From Gammaproteobacteria bacterium (GTDB lineage Bacteria; Pseudomonadota; Gammaproteobacteria; Pseudomonadales; Azotimanducaceae), in NCBI GenBank assembly GCA_009840305.1, contig VXNY01000007.1, positions 1-64,000 on the forward strand: 64,000 nucleotides of DNA. The letters are read 5' to 3'. The position numbers were made by a program, and so were the translations under genes. Below the pieces are notes generated by a model. That model saw only the letters and a list, made by a program, of their open reading frames with translations. It ran no database searches and had not been told where the DNA came from. Shown here one piece after another: positions 25,761 to 34,027 of this stretch (position 1 is the stretch's first letter; every line of letters starts with the position of its first letter).

Positions 25761-26174
25761 AACTTCAGAGAAAAGACCTCACACATCTACGACAAATCAT
25801 TCCGTGACTGCAAGATTTGTTGTTGCAAAAAAACCGGCACGTGTTGAACTATCGACGCGACGCTTGGACGCAATGTTGCCAGCTTGTTCTACACAACCTA
25901 AAACTCAAAAGCAAAGGGGCACAATTCGTTTCTTTACGGTAAGATAAGTAAACGTGTAGTGGTAAGGGAGAGCGCGTCGGTTATTAATCCGATGATTGAA
26001 CAAGAAATTTCTTTGATTAACTGATCAAGTTATCTAGAGAGTCTTTTTAGTATTTACAATGTCGTTTGACTGTCTGACTGAATGCCCCTTCACTGGGATA
26101 GTTGTTCAGCGGCTACAGTCTGAAGACTAGCAACTGTAGTCGCCTACCTAGGCGATCTGTACAGGGACTATACA
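25761..26174 (+). other. Intergenic region upstream of the permease gene
   Basis: 414 bp with no supportable gene. A frame over 25729-25947 runs through the terminator and is rejected. The permease promoter should lie here, but no clear hexamers were picked out. Confidence 0.4.
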
Positions 26175-27938
26175 ATGAGTCTCAACGAATCCGACAACTA
26201 CTCAGGGAACCGCCGACATCCAAACTCAGCAATCCCCATTCCGCTAAGCTTCGGCGTCGCGGCGCAGATTGCTTGCCTAGTGTTACCGGGCATAGTTATG
26301 ATTCCCACGGTCGTATTTCGAACTGCCGGCCAACCAGAGGGAAACTTGCAGTGGGCAGTGTTTGCTTCCGTTGCAATATCTGGAATCACTGCGATTCTCC
26401 AAGCACAAAGAATTGGTCGATTTGGCGCGGGGTACATTCTCGCAGTTGGACCGTCCATCGCAGCAATTGCAGTCAGCATCGCCGCCCTAGCTGCCGGTGG
26501 TCCAGCGTTACTCGCTACTTTGGTTGTGTGTTACGCTCTGATTCAAGTTCTGTTTTCCACACATCTTTCAGTGTTACGACGCATACTCACACCTACGGTG
26601 ACCGGCACGGTTCTCATGCTCACACCGATCACGATTATGCCCATTCTGTTCAACCAATCGAACATCGGTACGAGTGACTCACCTCTAGTTGGTGCAGGGC
26701 TCAGTGCTTTGGTGACTATGGTTCTCATTGTGGGAATCACGTTGATCGGAAAGAATCGAACCCGGTTTTGGGGACCAGTTATCGGTATCGTCGTAGGTAC
26801 GATCGTTGGCGGCATGTTCGGTCTATATGACGTTGACCGCGTCGCCGCAGCGTCCTGGATTGGTATTCCAAAATTTGAAGCGGTGCTACTTGACTTGCAA
26901 TTCAAATCCGAATTTTGGGTGTTACTTCCTGCATTTATCTTGGTAGCTTTGATCTGCACAATGCAGACGATCAGTGGTGCTGTTGGTATTCAGCAGGTCT
27001 CTTGGGAGGCAAATCGAGCGGTGGACTTCCGCGCCGTACAAGGTGCCGTAGCAGGGGACGCGGTGGGTAACTTGCTATCGGGTTTAGCGTGTACCATGCC
27101 ACTCGGATTTCGACCTTCAGGCGCAGCTATGGTCGAGATTAGTGGTGTTAGTTCTCGCCGAATCGGTGTTGCGCTGGGTGTGCTTCTAATCTTTCTGGCA
27201 TTTGTTCCCAAAGCGCTTGCCGTATTACTTGCGATTCCCAGCCCGGTAGTGGCAGCGTTTATCACTGTTACGATGGCTACGATTTTTGTGATTGGCGCGA
27301 GAGTGATTATTCAGGATGGTATTGACTATCGCAAAGGACTGATCGTCGGCATATCCTTCTGGCTCGGTGTTGGATTTCAGACCCAAGCAATATTCCTAGA
27401 TCAAGCTCCTGAGTTTGTGCGCGCACTCTTGCAAAACGGCATGCTCGCAGGCGGCATTGTCGCCGTCGCGTTGACAATGTTCCTTGAACTCACCAAATCG
27501 CGCCGGCACCGTTTGGAAGTAGGATTCGATGACTCTGCCTTACGGGAGATGAGGGATTTCCTAGGCGCTCTAGCATTACGAAAAAATTGGAATACAGAGC
27601 TAGTAGAACGCCTGAACGCTGTCTGCGAAGAAATTTGGCTTACGTTGCATCGCAAAGAAGCACTCGGTAAAAAAGTTGGTAGGCGTTTACTACTAACGAC
27701 GTACAACGAGGACCGTGCGATCGTGTTGGAATTCGTCTCTTCAAAAGGTGAAGAAAACATTCAGGACCGGATAGCGTTGTTGGGTGAGGCGAATGCGGCT
27801 GCTATGGTCGAACAGGACATTTCATTACGGCTATTGCGTCATCTTGCCTCTTCCGTTCGTCATCAACAATACCACGAAACAGAGATCGTCACAGTTCGCG
27901 TGGACTATCGACAGAATCGGAGTGACGACGGAACGTAG
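26175..27938 (+). CDS. NCS2-family nucleobase permease with C-terminal HATPase-like domain
   Basis: 587 residues. Residues 20-440 form a 14-helix nucleobase-ascorbate transporter (NCS2/SLC23), a proton- or sodium-driven carrier for uracil or xanthine in the inner membrane. Evidence includes the helix-8/10 region ALICTMQTISGAVGIQQVSW and the later GLACTMPLGFRPSGAAMVEISG. Ordinary family members end at about 430-460 residues. Here about 140 cytoplasmic residues follow, with ERLNAVCEEIWLTLHRKE resembling the N-box helix of GHKL/HATPase domains of RsbW type. Ligand specificity is not certain. The fused domain could sense a nucleotide or regulate transport. Confidence 0.8.
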   Translation: MSLNESDNYSGNRRHPNSAIPIPLSFGVAAQIACLVLPGIVMIPTVVFRTAGQPEGNLQWAVFASVAISGITAILQAQRIGRFGAGYILAVGPSIAAIAVSIAALAAGGPALLATLVVCYALIQVLFSTHLSVLRRILTPTVTGTVLMLTPITIMPILFNQSNIGTSDSPLVGAGLSALVTMVLIVGITLIGKNRTRFWGPVIGIVVGTIVGGMFGLYDVDRVAAASWIGIPKFEAVLLDLQFKSEFWVLLPAFILVALICTMQTISGAVGIQQVSWEANRAVDFRAVQGAVAGDAVGNLLSGLACTMPLGFRPSGAAMVEISGVSSRRIGVALGVLLIFLAFVPKALAVLLAIPSPVVAAFITVTMATIFVIGARVIIQDGIDYRKGLIVGISFWLGVGFQTQAIFLDQAPEFVRALLQNGMLAGGIVAVALTMFLELTKSRRHRLEVGFDDSALREMRDFLGALALRKNWNTELVERLNAVCEEIWLTLHRKEALGKKVGRRLLLTTYNEDRAIVLEFVSSKGEENIQDRIALLGEANAAAMVEQDISLRLLRHLASSVRHQQYHETEIVTVRVDYRQNRSDDGT

Positions 27939-28056
27939 AAATATCCTTCTCTAACTTAAACCATCTCAATACACATTGAATGACTTCACTGAGGGCAAGT
28001 CACGTCGCGCTTAAAATTCCTGATTTCTTTTTAACAAAAATATTTGGGATCAAACT

Positions 28057-28359
28057 ATGTACTTTGTTGTTAGTGCCACACACAAGCCAGGTCGAGTGCA
28101 GTCAGGGAGTGAAGTTCAGTTAGCATTCGCGGACTATTTAAGTAGTCATCCTGAACATCCGGACGTTGTCGTCCACAACGCTGGTCCTACTCACGACGAG
28201 GATGTCAACACTGTTGATGGTTTTCTTTTAGTAGTAGATGCTTCCTCAATAGATTCCGTGAGAGCATTCATTGCAGATTGTCCCTACAGCAAGGCAGGAA
28301 CTCTTGCACAAACCCACATTAGGATGTGGGACTGGAGGACCGGTAAGCCTGACGGCTAA
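28057..28359 (+). CDS. YciI-family (YCII-related) protein
   Basis: 100 residues of ferredoxin-like alpha+beta type. Signs of the YCII-related family are MYFVVSATHKPG at the start, the middle GPTHDEDVNTVDGFLLVVDA (the conserved G-P... segment before a strand) and SIDSVRAFIADCPYSKAG, which matches the family's 'A..~~DPf..aG' block. Members are small cytoplasmic proteins with uncertain, possibly hydrolytic or dehydrohalogenase-like activity. It converges with the RiPP locus, 55 bp away, and I see no link to it. Confidence 0.75.
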   Translation: MYFVVSATHKPGRVQSGSEVQLAFADYLSSHPEHPDVVVHNAGPTHDEDVNTVDGFLLVVDASSIDSVRAFIADCPYSKAGTLAQTHIRMWDWRTGKPDG

Positions 28360-28414
28360 CCTAAATCCTTATAAAGGCAGAAGGCTTCGTGTTTGTTCAA
28401 GAACGCGGCAAGTC

Positions 28415-29125
28415 CTAATTTTTTATGAAATGACCTAGGTAGTGGCGGCTTTCGGCTTTTTCATGGTGAGGACGAACGCAAGCATCATGGACGAGACGTT
28501 CGGTACACCCTACATACGCGACGTTTGGTTGTTGACAAATTCGAAGACATGGAATACGACTCCCGGCGCGTCCAATGTACCTATCGGCAACTTCACAAGG
28601 ATGCAGGTCGCTTGATGAGTCCACATGCTCTGCCATTTCTTCTATCGGTACTAACACCAGAAAGACGTACCGATCCCCTGGTCCTCGATTCACGACGATG
28701 CGATTACGGCTCTTCCATCTGGATTGAATGTCGTGATCGTCCCATGTATCCAAATGTAATCCCAATCTATACCCAGTGGTTCTGTCTACAGTGATCGACG
28801 GACTATTGGCGTAATCGACAGAAGCATTCAGCACGCTAATCGGCGACAAACTGATAAAGGGTGAGAAGTCCAAAGTCCGATCAGAATCAGGATTGCAAGG
28901 GAATATCGCAACAAAATTCAGTTCATGCTCGATTGACAGTTCGTCGAGAGTTCCAGTGTATTTCTTGACCTCACTTTTGTTTAACTTTCGAAAATCTACC
29001 GGTAATTTTGCGAGAGGTCGATAGTCATCAGAGCTCGAAAACTGTTCCCCAACAGGAACGAGCGTGTCGCTGAAAGCTATTAAGTCATGGACCGACCCAA
29101 GTCTCGAGTCAAAAAAGATTTTCAC
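28415..29125 (-). CDS. Putative 2OG-Fe(II) oxygenase-like RiPP tailoring protein
   Basis: 236 residues from a GTG start. The core reads YRLGLHLDTWD (His124, Asp126), NRIVVNRGPGDRYVFL (about 141-155) and TERLVHDACVRP (His213). HxD plus a distal His is the metal facial triad of cupin-type 2-oxoglutarate/Fe(II) enzymes, and the NRI-N-G-DRY strand is typical of the subgroup found with cyclophane RiPPs. It is the last gene of the minus-strand cluster precursor > radical SAM > this. The proposed role is hydroxylation or other oxidation of the modified core. The start and any metal activity are unverified. Confidence 0.65.
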   Translation of the reverse strand: MKIFFDSRLGSVHDLIAFSDTLVPVGEQFSSSDDYRPLAKLPVDFRKLNKSEVKKYTGTLDELSIEHELNFVAIFPCNPDSDRTLDFSPFISLSPISVLNASVDYANSPSITVDRTTGYRLGLHLDTWDDHDIQSRWKSRNRIVVNRGPGDRYVFLVLVPIEEMAEHVDSSSDLHPCEVADRYIGRAGSRIPCLRICQQPNVAYVGCTERLVHDACVRPHHEKAESRHYLGHFIKN

Positions 29126-29224
29126 TAAAGATCATGCGGAGTCGATAGGCGAACGCCCGATCTCACCAGTTGCTATCTATATGATTGAGGGTCTGAAGAG
29201 TGTTGTCGGAATTAAAAAATTCGG

Positions 29225-30427
29225 CTAAACCAATTCGGCACTGAGGGTGGTCAGGGATTCACCCTGAAGGGCTAAGTGTCGCACCACATGGGTGTAGAAC
29301 TTGTCCAATCCTTCGCAGTAGACTGATGGATTGTCAAACCCATTCACACTACCGTATCTGTGTTCTGGTTGGCCACTTCCGCAGACGTCGCGCCAACAAC
29401 AACTCGAACACGCGGTAGCAGGCGTATTTTTACCGAACACAAAATCCTGAAATATTGGATCTTGAATAACCTCACCGATGTTGGTTTCTTTCACGTCTCG
29501 ATACTCGTACCCGCTCCAGAACTTAGTGGATCGAATCGTGTCCTCCGGTCCCATACCGCCTTCCGAAGACACTGTTACAAGAAGATTTTCTGGAGTGTAT
29601 CTCTCACTACTGAATAGAAAGTTGCCGTATCCATAAATTCGGGCTAAGAAGTGATCGATGATCCGAACGTTTACGGATTCATCATCGTTCACCATTTGAT
29701 CGAAGATGTCAATCAGAAAGTCACCATAAGCTTCTGCGTTGCCGTCAAAATTGTCGTGATTCATGTCCGGAAGCAGAAAATCGAAATGATCTACACCGAG
29801 ATCTTCCCGGAAGTGCGTGTAGATTTCTTTTGCGTCGAATTTGTCGTCCACCACCGACAGGATCATGGGCGATTGTGGGAGGTTTTCTTGACACAACTTT
29901 ATCCCGCGTGCGGTAGCTTCATAAGAAGATCTACCCTGATGATCGCGGCGGTGAGCATCGTTGTGCTTCTTCGCGCCGTCAAGACTGACACCTACCTGAA
30001 TGCCATACCTCTTAAATATCTCTATCCATTCCAGGTCGATAAGCATACCATTGGTTTGCACGGTCAGAGCTAAATTTACAATGGGGTCCAAATTTGATCT
30101 GATTTCTTGGCAAATATCATTGAAGCGGTCTTTCGGCATCAGAAGAGGTTCGCCACCGTGTAAGTGGATAACGATTCTCCGCAGCTGGTATTCTGCGGCG
30201 AATTCTTTCAGTCTCGCTACGAGCACGTTGATCGTGTCTTGGGATATGAGTGCCGAATGAGTCTCGTAGCTATCGTCTCCCGCATTGAAGAAGTAACAGT
30301 AGTCGCAGTCAAGATTGCAACGTTCGGAAATTTTTAGTGTGATCGCGAGGGTGTGCAGGTTGCGAAAATCAACCTTGACTCGATCAGAAGAAATAATTGT
30401 CTTCGATGTGTGTGCGTTTTCGTACAT
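29225..30427 (-). CDS. Radical SAM/SPASM peptide maturase, FxsB/cyclophane-forming type
   Basis: 400 residues. The radical SAM cluster motif is Cys37-x3-Cys41-x2-Cys44 (ERCNLDCDYCYFF), with HLHGGEPLL as the SAM-binding GGE. The C-terminal SPASM-type segment has ACSSCCWRDVCGSGQPEHRY followed by GFDNPSVYC. The HRY...FDNPSVYC signature is shared with maturases of FxsB/XyeB type, which crosslink an aromatic side chain to a residue two positions later. Upstream by 257 bp on the same strand lies the repeat-bearing precursor. The natural substrate is therefore predicted to be that peptide, with the Phe of each repeat as crosslinking site. Confidence 0.88.
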   Translation of the reverse strand: MYENAHTSKTIISSDRVKVDFRNLHTLAITLKISERCNLDCDYCYFFNAGDDSYETHSALISQDTINVLVARLKEFAAEYQLRRIVIHLHGGEPLLMPKDRFNDICQEIRSNLDPIVNLALTVQTNGMLIDLEWIEIFKRYGIQVGVSLDGAKKHNDAHRRDHQGRSSYEATARGIKLCQENLPQSPMILSVVDDKFDAKEIYTHFREDLGVDHFDFLLPDMNHDNFDGNAEAYGDFLIDIFDQMVNDDESVNVRIIDHFLARIYGYGNFLFSSERYTPENLLVTVSSEGGMGPEDTIRSTKFWSGYEYRDVKETNIGEVIQDPIFQDFVFGKNTPATACSSCCWRDVCGSGQPEHRYGSVNGFDNPSVYCEGLDKFYTHVVRHLALQGESLTTLSAELV

Positions 30428-30684
30428 TGATCTCAGCGTTGGCGCAATCTACACAGAAGAAACAAGGACCAAAATTAAATTCGGTGATCAATAATGAATT
30501 TGCTCCCCGTCGGTCTAAAGCAAGGCCATTAAACCAACTGAGGAAGCTGCTCTCTAACCTAACACCAATCTAGCGCAACCGCGACCTAATAATAACGGAA
30601 GCGAATCCACGTTGTTTTCTTAACAGGTGCTTCGCCTCAGGTCGCTGAAGCTTCGAATTCAGATGATTGGTCCTTTAGAAATTC

Positions 30685-31011
30685 CTAGCTCTTTGTTGCT
30701 CTTGATTCCGTACCTGGAGGAGCGGAGACGAAATTGCCTCCTGCACCGATCGATTCGGTTCCAGGTGGCGCCGAGACGAAATTGCCACCAGCTGTTACTG
30801 GTTCTGATCCAGGTGGAGCAGAAACAAAGTTGCCACCAGCCGCTACAGACTCCGTGCCGGGAGGAGCCGAGACGAAATTACCGCCAGCTTCGACATAGCT
30901 CGAAACTTTCTTCTGTAAATTCTGACCTAGCTCTTTACCTGATGCTTCCTTCTGATCGTGGGAGGAGATTCCCAATTTCTCACGGAGGCGTTGTAATTTT
31001 TGATCTTCCAT
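30685..31011 (-). CDS. RiPP precursor peptide with four identical core repeats
   Basis: 108 residues with ribosome site AAAGGTGA before ATG 31011. Residues 1-40 form a charged helical leader (QKLQRLREKLGISSHDQKE). Residues 43-106 are four repeats of exactly 16 residues, each with GGNFVSAPPG, then T/S-E-S/P and a variable tripeptide; Phe lies at 46, 62, 78 and 94. The DNA of the repeats differs at many synonymous sites while the ten-residue core stays identical, which indicates selection on the peptide. The adjacent FxsB-like maturase makes each Phe-Val-Ser a candidate three-residue cyclophane. There is no Cys and no signal peptide. The peptide's activity is unknown. Confidence 0.85.
   Translation of the reverse strand: MEDQKLQRLREKLGISSHDQKEASGKELGQNLQKKVSSYVEAGGNFVSAPPGTESVAAGGNFVSAPPGSEPVTAGGNFVSAPPGTESIGAGGNFVSAPPGTESRATKS
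30694..30885 (-). repeat. Four 48-bp tandem repeats inside the precursor gene
   Basis: Exact 48-bp period; each unit encodes the same GGNFVSAPPG core. Sequence differences are concentrated at third codon positions. Confidence 0.9.
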
Positions 31012-31044
31012 AAGTCACCTTTCGATGCAGTATTAAACCAATTC

Positions 31045-31050
31045 ATTATA
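31045..31050 (-). promoter_or_regulatory. Possible -10 element of the RiPP operon
   Basis: TATAAT on the minus strand, 34 bp upstream of the precursor ATG. No -35 consensus at the usual distance, so an activator may be needed. Confidence 0.35.
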
Positions 31051-31176
31051 TATTACAACCGCAACGCTCATTTCAGCTGTGTACATGTGTGGACACTTGT
31101 GTTTTAGCAATTCTCAAGGCTCGCAACACTAGAATTTCTATATTCATTTTGTTGGGCACGTATCCTTACACTACCT

Positions 31177-32430
31177 ATGTTATGTCACGAAAAATTGCGC
31201 GATTCAGATCCTGAAATCTGGGAGGCAATAACCGCAGAAGACCGTCGACAAGAAAGTCATATCGAGCTCTCCGCGTCGGAAAACTACGTATCTCCAGCGG
31301 TGCTTGAAGCACAGGGTTGTGGGATGACTAATAAATACGCCGAAGGTTATCCCGGTAAACGATATTACGGTGGTTGTGATTTTGTCGATCAAGTCGAATT
31401 ATTGGCGATTGATCGAGCGAAACGCCTGTTCGGTGCCGATTACGCGAATGTACAACCTCATTCCGGTAGTCAAGCTAATGCTTCGGTCTACTTAGCGTTG
31501 CTCGAACCCAATGACTTAATACTCGGTATGAGTTCGACTCAAGGTGGGCACACAACACATGGTTCTCCCGACAATTTTTCTGGTCGAATCTACAACGCGA
31601 TTCACTATGGAGTAAATCAGGATGATGGATTAGTGGACTACGACGATGCGTTTTCGAAAGCCCAAAAACACAAACCGAAAATCGTGGTGGCTGGGTTTTC
31701 CGCTTATAGTCGTACGTTGGACTGGGATAAGTTTCGTGAAATTGCGGACTCGGTCGACGCGTACCTGATGATAGATATGTCACATGTTGCCGGTCTAGTT
31801 GCTGCCGGTGTATATCCCAATCCAATCCCGCATGCAGATGTTGTAACTACCACCACTCACAAAACACTCGCGGGGCCGAGAGGGGGTTTGATCTTGACGC
31901 GCGCAAACTCAGAGGTCGAGAAGAAACTCAATTCTGCTCTTTTTCCTGGAACACAGGGCGGACCTTTGATGCATGTCATCGCAGCGAAAGCAGTCTGCTT
32001 CAAAGAAGCCGCCACACGTGAATTCCAAGAATATCAATTACAGGTAGTGGAAAATGCTCGCGCTATGGCCTTGAGGTTTAAAGATCGCGGCTATACCGTT
32101 ATCTCCGGCGGTACCGATATCCATATGTTTTTGGTAAACCTCACTGATAACGAAGTTCCTGGTGTAGCCGTTTTTGAAGCACTAAGTCGCGCCAAAATCT
32201 CAGTGAACAAAATTTCTGGTCAGAAAAATCCGCAATCTCCTAGAGAATCGCACCGTCTCCGCATTGGATCCGCGGCGGTGACTCGTCGGGGTTTTGGTAC
32301 ACAAGAGTGTTCAACTCTAGCAGATTGGATGTGTGACATTCTCGACGACTTCGCCAACGAGGATACGGTTGCGTCGGTCGGCCAGAGAGTACTTGAACTG
32401 TGTGAGAGATTTCCTGTTTATTCGCGGTGA
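31177..32430 (+). CDS. glyA: Serine hydroxymethyltransferase
   Basis: 417 residues, the normal length. This PLP enzyme interconverts serine and glycine with tetrahydrofolate, supplying one-carbon units. The active-site lysine lies in [16 protein letters not shown]. Also typical are [46 protein letters not shown] and the C-terminal [13 protein letters not shown]. The region [16 protein letters not shown] is slightly unlike the usual LTHGSPVNFSG. The start ATG 31177 has no obvious ribosome site. It is transcribed divergently from the RiPP precursor, and co-regulation is not indicated. Confidence 0.95.
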
Positions 32431-32638
32431 CTAAGCAGACTCAAGACTGTTTTGCTGCCGAGTTTGGAGGCGGGATTTCCGAGTAGATACTGACAACTCG
32501 TTCGAGTCAACTGTTGAGAGTGTCGATCCCCTTTAGGCTCGACTGAAGGTGCGACAATTGATTTACGGTGATCCATCAAACGTCACAGGTGTGAGCAATC
32601 GATTCAGCTAGCGCCCAACTTCGTTGCCATTCCTATGT

Positions 32639-33298
32639 CTACAAAGCTCCAGTTCCCAAGTGTATGAGTTCTGGAATCGTCGATACTGCGTAAAGGAAAT
32701 AGGGTATTAAACTGATTCTAACACAAAAAGACATCCCTTTATCTGTCCAAATTCTCAAACCCTGCACACATAGAACGACCGTCCACACAAGAGGCAATAT
32801 GATGAATATGACAATGATGGAGAAGAAGAAGAAGAGAGATGGATTTGTAGCATGACCCCAGACGCTCAACAAAGAACTCCCAACGACAGTCAACAGCATA
32901 GGAATATTTATCCAAGCAGTGAAACCAAGCCAGTGTTCCCACAATATGTCTATATGAAAGCATCGTCCGATGATGAAGAAGTATGTCCCTAGTAACACTA
33001 CGCAGACAAAGAGTCCTACAATCGTGACTGGGACGAAAAGTACGAGATACGGTATAGAAGAAAATTTAAACTCAACGAGCTCAGCGGGAATGTAGGAACC
33101 AGCCATCGCATTGACACCGACGATCAAGTAAAAAATCGGCAGTAGCACCCAAAGTATCAGTACAGGAACTATACAGACAAAGAGAACTGGGATCAATATC
33201 GGTGTGTCTGGAGGTTTAGTGAGTTCAAACACCTGCCTAGACGAAAATGTATAGACATTCCACACATGCATCCAAACGCTCTTATTCAGCGGATTCAT
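32639..33298 (-). CDS. Yip1-like polytopic membrane protein
   Basis: 219 residues with five long hydrophobic segments (about 33-60, 85-112, 125-148, 155-180, 190-212) after a polar N-terminus that reads TKPPDTPILIPVLFV. The layout (a soluble N-tail, then TM segments with RCFHIDILWEHWLGFTAWINIP between) is that of Yip1-domain proteins, whose bacterial members have unknown function. Aromatic residues and cysteines are frequent. It converges on glyA with 208 bp between, and no terminator was recognised. Confidence 0.65.
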   Translation of the reverse strand: MNPLNKSVWMHVWNVYTFSSRQVFELTKPPDTPILIPVLFVCIVPVLILWVLLPIFYLIVGVNAMAGSYIPAELVEFKFSSIPYLVLFVPVTIVGLFVCVVLLGTYFFIIGRCFHIDILWEHWLGFTAWINIPMLLTVVGSSLLSVWGHATNPSLFFFFSIIVIFIILPLVWTVVLCVQGLRIWTDKGMSFCVRISLIPYFLYAVSTIPELIHLGTGAL

Positions 33299-33979
33299 TT
33301 CAAACTTGCCCGTGTTCGTTAATCGACTGGAGATTTGCTAACTCTAAAGCCCGGTACTTGCAGTTCCGAGCCTGATCCACATCGAGTTGAGAAGTCTTCA
33401 GTTCCTCTTATCCCTTTCCTAAACGGCAATGGATGGTGAGAATAAGCAACTTGTCGGCATCACACTATTCTAGTCGTCTACTTTTGGTCATACACTGTGC
33501 GATGGAGATATAGGCACGTCGAGAAACCAGACTTCCAGCGAAGCTGTTCACAAACCAATTCAATCTAGAGCAAGTTCAATTCTCTCCAACGGTTCGTGCA
33601 ACACAACTAAAACCAAACTAGGTGCCAAAAAAACCTAGACGAAGTCTGTCATGGGAACGGAGTTCGGAAGCTTAGATGGAAAGTACGATAGACATTAAGA
33701 AATAAAGACATCACCGGAGCTGAGTGTCAGTCCAATCAACACAAGAAAAGGTACCAAAACCGGTAGTATCGACAAGAACTGGGGTGACTATAACGTTCGC
33801 GGTTGTTTTGACAGGCTTCGGTGTGAATACCTTAGCGTGTCTAGGTTTTTATAGTCGAATTGATCTCAGTCTTCATATTCGAAATTTCAAATGATTTGCT
33901 CTCGACAGGTAAGTCGCGCACCTCTTTATACAGGAAGTATCACATTTCTTATTGTCGATAGATAAATATAGTTATTTGT
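33299..33979 (+). other. Intergenic region, no gene recognised
   Basis: 681 bp upstream of the fic operator. Short frames on both strands around 33690-33860 are open, but neither has a plausible start or recognisable product. The DNA becomes AT-rich toward 33960. Confidence 0.45.
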
Positions 33980-34027
33980 GTTAGACGATAATGTATAGAA
34001 TAACTAGTACGTATATTATCGTCTAAC
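33980..34027 (+). promoter_or_regulatory. Perfect 13-bp inverted repeat, probable operator of the Fic gene
   Basis: GTTAGACGATAAT (33980-33992) and its exact complement ATTATCGTCTAAC (34015-34027) are separated by 22 bp, in AT-rich DNA 47-94 bp before the Fic start codon. Arm centres lie 35 bp apart, so two dimers or one dimer with half-sites on different turns could bind. The Fic protein has a C-terminal winged-helix-like region, so autoregulation is plausible. The arms could also form an RNA hairpin if transcribed. Confidence 0.65.

Follow-up and report, generated by a model that had tools for sequence, protein, structure and literature searches.

Several described systems resemble the locus analysed here. 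In YhhABC, for example on Vibrio echinoideorum plasmid p1, a precursor, the cyclophane maturase YhhB and the 2OG-Fe(II) oxygenase YhhC are encoded in the same order as in our cassette, so that an architecture of precursor, cyclophane maturase and 2OG oxygenase is already known. In TvgABCDE, according to the available excerpts of PMC9062424, a repeat precursor is likewise accompanied by a radical SAM and an Fe/2OG enzyme, but its repeats are TVGG, on which TvgB forms a valine cyclopropane, its product is poly-cyclopropylglycine, and transporters are present. The available excerpts of PMC11002830 describe MscB, compared here by that description, as joining C4 of Phe to the beta-carbon of Ser, at residues i and i+2. 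The xye locus of Xenorhabdus has a different third gene, with no match to the oxygenase described below, and exporter genes. Among the papers listed by searches of the open-licence literature on triceptides, cyclophanes, sponge-symbiont RiPPs and MicC, there was no account of the present cassette.

On the minus strand of the window (the whole 64,000-nt stretch of DNA that was analysed), the open reading frames give a precursor, a radical SAM maturase and a 236-aa oxygenase-like protein as successive genes. These are the three frames of a preliminary description of the region, and their coordinates are borne out by the open reading frame list. The gaps between them are 257 nt (precursor to maturase) and 99 nt (maturase to oxygenase). 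The features are:

30685..31011, minus strand: precursor peptide, 108 aa, an open reading frame whose homologues adjoin the maturase in 11 of 11 carriers
30886..31011, minus strand: leader region, residues 1-42 (MEDQKLQRLREKLGIS...), kept among the 11 precursors as compared by eye
30856..30885, minus strand: core 1, GGNFVSAPPG, from the sequence
30808..30837, minus strand: core 2, GGNFVSAPPG, from the sequence
30760..30789, minus strand: core 3, GGNFVSAPPG, from the sequence
30712..30741, minus strand: core 4, GGNFVSAPPG, from the sequence
29225..30427, minus strand: radical SAM peptide maturase, 400 aa, related to XyeB, YhhB and FxsB, below every named family's cut-off
30296..30319, minus strand: radical SAM cluster motif C37xxxC41xxC44, invariant in 8 aligned maturases
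29315..29410, minus strand: C-terminal cysteines C340, C343, C349 and C371, invariant in 8 aligned maturases, with a putative auxiliary-cluster role
28415..29125, minus strand: MicC-family Fe(II)/2OG oxygenase, 236 aa, its function predicted from a profile match to MicC and the predicted fold
28748..28756, minus strand: putative iron ligands H124-x-D126, invariant in 15 aligned rows
28487..28489, minus strand: putative distal iron ligand H213, invariant in 15 aligned rows

We screened 206 genomes of the window's family for the maturase and found close relatives (65-94% identity) in nine, besides the window's own genome, six of the nine being of the same genus. Seven of the 18 listed genomes of the genus carry the gene, and it is absent at E<=1e-20 from the other 11, three of which are less than 90% complete. 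A profile built from an eight-row maturase alignment was scanned against genome contigs and the best 80 loci were kept; three of these hold maturases of 66-68% identity, two of them in genomes already in the family set, and the scan added locus L050 (genome G1203) as a further carrier, for a total of 11 genomes. Every one of these has the genes for precursor, maturase and oxygenase in that order on a single strand. When 22 genomes were searched for the precursor, all 11 maturase carriers gave a match (E no worse than 2.6e-11), and the 11 same-genus non-carriers gave none at E<0.1 (best E=0.126); this distribution makes the repeat peptide the likely substrate of the maturase, as had been suggested. 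Consistent pairing of maturase homologues with another substrate, or lack of the repeat beside the maturase in other genomes, had been named as grounds for refutation, and here the outcome depends on distance: the 11 close homologues (65-100% identity) always adjoin the repeat, whereas distant ones (at most 39%) adjoin other precursors.

In comparisons with the nearest homologues that give a usable dS, dN/dS came to 0.05-0.13 in six precursor pairs, 0.03-0.05 in five maturase pairs and 0.07-0.15 in six oxygenase pairs. These values point to purifying selection on all three genes over the measurable range, which is that of the nearest five or six homologues, dS being saturated or undefined against more distant ones. 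The sequences show that the three genes stay together and are conserved. The cassette is shared by uncultured relatives of the window's owner and looks like a genuine, conserved relative of the known cyclophane-peptide pathways, not like a novel type of system. A sponge origin of the related MAGs (isolate prefixes RHO1 and SB0675) was not confirmed by a literature search. Within the cassette we saw neither a protease nor a transporter gene, so the peptide would have to be cut and exported by enzymes whose genes lie elsewhere. The window's genome gave one C39-peptidase match, located in a different cluster; that this peptidase cuts the repeat peptide in trans is speculation. The precursor-maturase gap has a mean column identity of 65% within the genus. 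An RNA element in this 257-nt gap was considered and rejected, as there was no Rfam match at gathering level (window 26000-34000) and promoter- and terminator-like sites were no more frequent than in shuffled sequence.

The surroundings of the cassette are also partly shared. Divergently beside the precursor in the seven genus carriers lies a second serine hydroxymethyltransferase gene (window 31177-32430, plus strand), the window copy having the PLP-lysine motif. At E<=1e-100 there are two copies in each of the seven carriers, one in ten of the 11 non-carriers and none in the eleventh (77% complete), and in a 24-row tree the seven additional ones form the sister group to the remaining copies in six carriers. 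None was seen beside the cassettes of loci L048-L050, and the extra copy may be a lineage trait outside the cassette. After the cassette, in opposite orientation, the seven genus carriers have a YciI-like gene and an NCS2-type permease gene (window 26175-28359, plus strand); L050 has YciI-like and NCS2-type permease genes too (labelled by eye), with a Rieske-type oxygenase pair in between. This neighbourhood probably reflects a shared ancestral position.

The precursor does contain the four identical cores first reported, GGNFVSAPPG recurring at a spacing of 48 nt (16 residues). Across the 11 precursors the number of cores is 4, 4, 3, 3, 4, 4, 2, 1, 3, 3 and 3, a sum of 34, and their spacing is 16 residues within the genus and 11 or 22 outside it. 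GGNFVS is invariant in all 34 cores from the 11 genomes, and each of its six codons shows synonymous changes (Phe is TTC in 17 cores and TTT in 17; Ser is written in four codons). This constancy, taken with the synonymous variation and the low dN/dS, reflects selection on the residues and not recent copying; like the order of the trio, kept in all 11 genomes, it goes beyond chance. The Ala that follows is replaced by Ser in 2 of 34 cores, and Pro-Pro by Thr-Arg in a single core of the 34 (L048). Invariant cores, a conserved leader and linkage to the maturase together uphold the original interpretation of the region as a RiPP locus. Against library models the precursor reached 18.8 bits for thiovarsolin (NF033878, cut-off 35) and 19 bits for FdhF (cut-off 582), both below cut-off and taken as chance. 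The core had not been recognised from named families, and the literature agrees with this: in open-licence papers the strings GGNFVS, NFVSAPP and FVSAPPG occurred in only two, both unrelated by title. Vibrio YhhA is 47 aa long and ends YDRTHNRHNRGQ, against 108 aa for the window precursor, and Xenorhabdus xyeA (51 aa) has WVN, FAR and WDK motifs without the GGNFVS repeat. FxsA has its core, FxSxx, at the C-terminus, whereas the cores in the window are internal and repeated.

The maturase has CNLDCDYC as its radical SAM motif, and the string HRY...GFDNPSVYC was confirmed near its C-terminus. It had been labelled a radical SAM/SPASM enzyme; only four cysteines after the motif are invariant among the eight aligned maturases, fewer than the seven of a full SPASM domain. 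These four, C340, C343, C349 and C371, are likely to serve an auxiliary cluster. Against the NCBIfam models the enzyme scored 285.5 bits for XyeB (TIGR04496, cut-off 450), 270.2 for YhhB (445) and 256.6 for FxsB (TIGR04269, 370), these three top-scoring families all being named as cyclophane-forming, and its homologues in L050 (294.2) and L048 (274.2) also fall short of the XyeB cut-off of 450. Among PDB entries it is most similar to the radical SAM domain of ChlB (E=8.5e-45). On the family scores the maturase is a relative of cyclophane formers that passes no named family's cut-off.

Tree analysis places it more closely. In a 97-row tree, built by a quick method with all of the best 80 loci, the 11 cassette maturases form a single clade (support 100) on a stem of 0.78 changes per column, inside a 29-row proteobacterial XyeB group (97) and separate from a 40-row group that includes FxsB and HaaB (86). 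A slower 71-row tree, made without 26 of the best 80 loci (Actinomycetota by title), agrees, with support of 100/100 for the cassette clade, a stem of 0.74 and 94/98 for the XyeB group; both trees are midpoint-rooted only. XyeB (XncB) is thus both the best-scoring family, with its cut-off missed, and the one that shares a tree group with the window maturase, while YhhB stands apart from it in both trees. The label "FxsB-like" given initially, and with it FxsB membership, was rejected, because the FxsB score is below the cut-off, XyeB and YhhB score better, and the tree puts the maturase with XyeB, outside the group that holds FxsB. MscB belongs to IPR026335, which we take to be the FxsB family.

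The third protein had been described as carrying HxD...H and assigned to the 2OG-Fe(II) oxygenases, and both statements hold. The motif is formed by H124-x-D126 and H213, which align to H, D and H in MicC (PDB 9vkm), an alpha-ketoglutarate-dependent non-heme iron oxygenase. An alignment profile (A2, with the window protein as first row) matched MicC over residues 21-293 of 295 at E=2.2e-58, so that MicC is a full-length homologue of the family; the window sequence alone matched residues 112-218 at E=0.002. Of the eleven residues that never vary in the 15-row oxygenase alignment, MicC lacks R46, R142 and T208. The closest folds to an AlphaFold model of the window protein (pLDDT 89.1, pTM 0.86) are 2OG oxygenases; 9vkm was not among the fold matches listed, from a structure set extending to April 2026. 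Taken together, the profile homology, the fold and the invariant motif assign the third protein to the MicC family of Fe(II)/2OG oxygenases. Kinship with YhhC or XyeC was rejected for want of a match: the window protein matched no NCBIfam model at E<=1, that of YhhC (NF041706) included, and had no significant match to Vibrio YhhC, which as a positive control scored 253.3 on that model (cut-off 150). The window oxygenase has no Pfam match, and TvgC is IPR018724 in the available excerpts of PMC11002830, the two being set side by side by description only. A literature search did not find the gene context, substrate or primary paper of MicC.

Among the best 80 maturase loci, nine have an oxygenase-family gene directly downstream of the maturase, and six loci of this arrangement are from Bacteroidota. 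Oxygenase queries gave four distinct plasmid places (five records), two adjoining GrrM maturases (Nostoc, Streptomyces) and two not. No maturase-like frame was seen within the fetched 10.7 kb around the Streptomyces NBC_01454 and Methylocystis parvus plasmid homologues, nor a maturase on the 6.6-kb contig of a homologue in a same-class genome, whose gene lies near the contig end. An exclusive tie between oxygenase and maturase is ruled out by Streptomyces NBC_01454, the two near-identical Methylocystis parvus plasmids and the same-class contig. Carriage of the oxygenase by phages was likewise rejected, a phage collection having given no match.

The reading that we favour, with moderate confidence, is that of a triceptide-type RiPP cassette of three genes, in which a Phe-Ser ring is made in each core and the oxygenase then adds a hydroxyl group. 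As in triceptides, the precursor adjoins a maturase related to cyclophane formers (11/11 cassettes) and contains an aromatic-X-X motif, here F-V-S (34/34 cores). The maturase would recognise the conserved leader and act on every core, joining C4 of the Phe phenyl ring to the beta-carbon of the Ser at i+2; each repeat would thereby gain one strained three-residue ring, at -2 Da each. The Phe-X-Ser site put forward in the preliminary description has a precedent in MscB, as excerpted from PMC11002830. Since Phe-Val-Ser fits that reported bond, one ring per core is our best reading, and by this analogy an aryl to beta-carbon bond between residues i and i+2 of each Phe-Val-Ser is the most likely. 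The oxygenase would then hydroxylate the core (+16 Da). We would guess that the site probably lies within GGNFVS, because the L048 precursor has lost Pro-Pro yet its cassette keeps the oxygenase; for the same reason prolyl hydroxylation is unlikely to be the oxygenase's sole job. That the product acts as a secreted antagonist or a signal is a guess. Several observations count against this explanation. The maturase passes no named cut-off; members of the wider oxygenase family also occur apart from maturases; MicC does not keep R46, R142 and T208; and Val is as invariant as Phe and Ser, in all 34 cores, when a Phe-Ser ring by itself requires neither Val nor Gly-Gly-Asn.

The most far-reaching reading, although unlikely, is a separate peptide class, in which the maturase clade would modify GGNFVS in an unseen way (for example a ring plus a change to Val in one core) and a MicC-type oxygenase would finish the product, giving up to four identical doubly modified units per peptide in uncultured bacteria. 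Also unlikely is the idea that the maturase makes some other bond or change on the core, for instance at Asn, Gly or Ser alone, yielding a product unlike triceptides. The long stem of the 11-member maturase clade (0.74 and 0.78 changes per column), its scores below all named cut-offs and the invariance of Gly-Gly and Asn alongside Phe-Val-Ser would suit such a change, but the maturase is akin to several reported cyclophane formers and the core has an unvarying aromatic-X-Ser motif.

The main named alternative is that the maturase links the two Val methyls in NFVS to give cyclopropylglycine, as TvgB does, with the oxygenase playing the part of TvgC. In its favour are the Val kept in all 34 cores and the make-up of tvgABC, which in the available excerpts of PMC9062424 and PMC11002830 likewise combines a precursor of repeats with a radical SAM and an Fe/2OG enzyme. 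We regard it as rather improbable, for the three families that score best with the maturase are all cyclophane formers, TvgB being known here by description, and a Val target alone leaves the invariant Asn, Phe and Ser unexplained. The check for -2 Da per repeat that had been proposed would not tell a cyclophane from a Val cyclopropane (TvgB, excerpts of PMC9062424): both give -2 Da, and mass alone therefore cannot separate these readings.

It is improbable, too, that the third protein is a neighbour with its own job, such as a small-molecule oxygenase, instead of tailoring the peptide. Its homologues do occur away from maturases, and the gap before its gene, 52 nt in one genus cassette, measures 98-100 nt in the other six. 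Set against this are its place directly downstream of the maturase in 11/11 cassettes and in the six Bacteroidota loci, the adjacency of its family to GrrM on a Nostoc and a Streptomyces plasmid, and its rarity, a phylum-wide sample having matched in only one of 369 genomes, the window's own. Hardly credible is the notion that the repeat protein is an ordinary low-complexity protein: it passes no library cut-off and its weak matches look like chance, but the conserved leader, the invariant cores with synonymous change and the strict linkage to the maturase oppose it.

The cassette would test the choice of Phe-X-Ser, the one-by-one processing of repeats and the oxygenase's contribution to a strained ring. 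The eleven precursors, each holding between one and four nearly identical cores, form a compact natural substrate set for a maturase clade outside the named family models, and the oxygenase family has a solved member whose family's role in such loci was not found described in the literature searched.

Related loci show further arrangements. Behind one maturase, Chitinophaga ginsengisoli (L092 7236-10747) has four tandem MicC-family oxygenase genes and Chryseobacterium jejuense (L112 7233-8944) two; both loci have small upstream frames with YDK or YNR. Motifs of the His-Gly-Ser type, or repeated HDQTHS/HGQTHS ones, occur in precursor-like genes (L040 5814-5993, L030 1992-3890) that adjoin related maturases and HEXXH-type proteins. 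Locus L202 (5852-12870, genome G000, contig C11) holds genes presumably for the export of nitrile-hydratase-leader peptides, with an ABC transporter of the C39-peptidase type and a 430-aa protein whose start resembles such a leader. On a Streptomyces plasmid (L026 4016-12116), genes for lanthionine synthetase C and lantibiotic dehydratase surround a MicC-family gene and one for a GrrM maturase, possibly as a hybrid RiPP locus.
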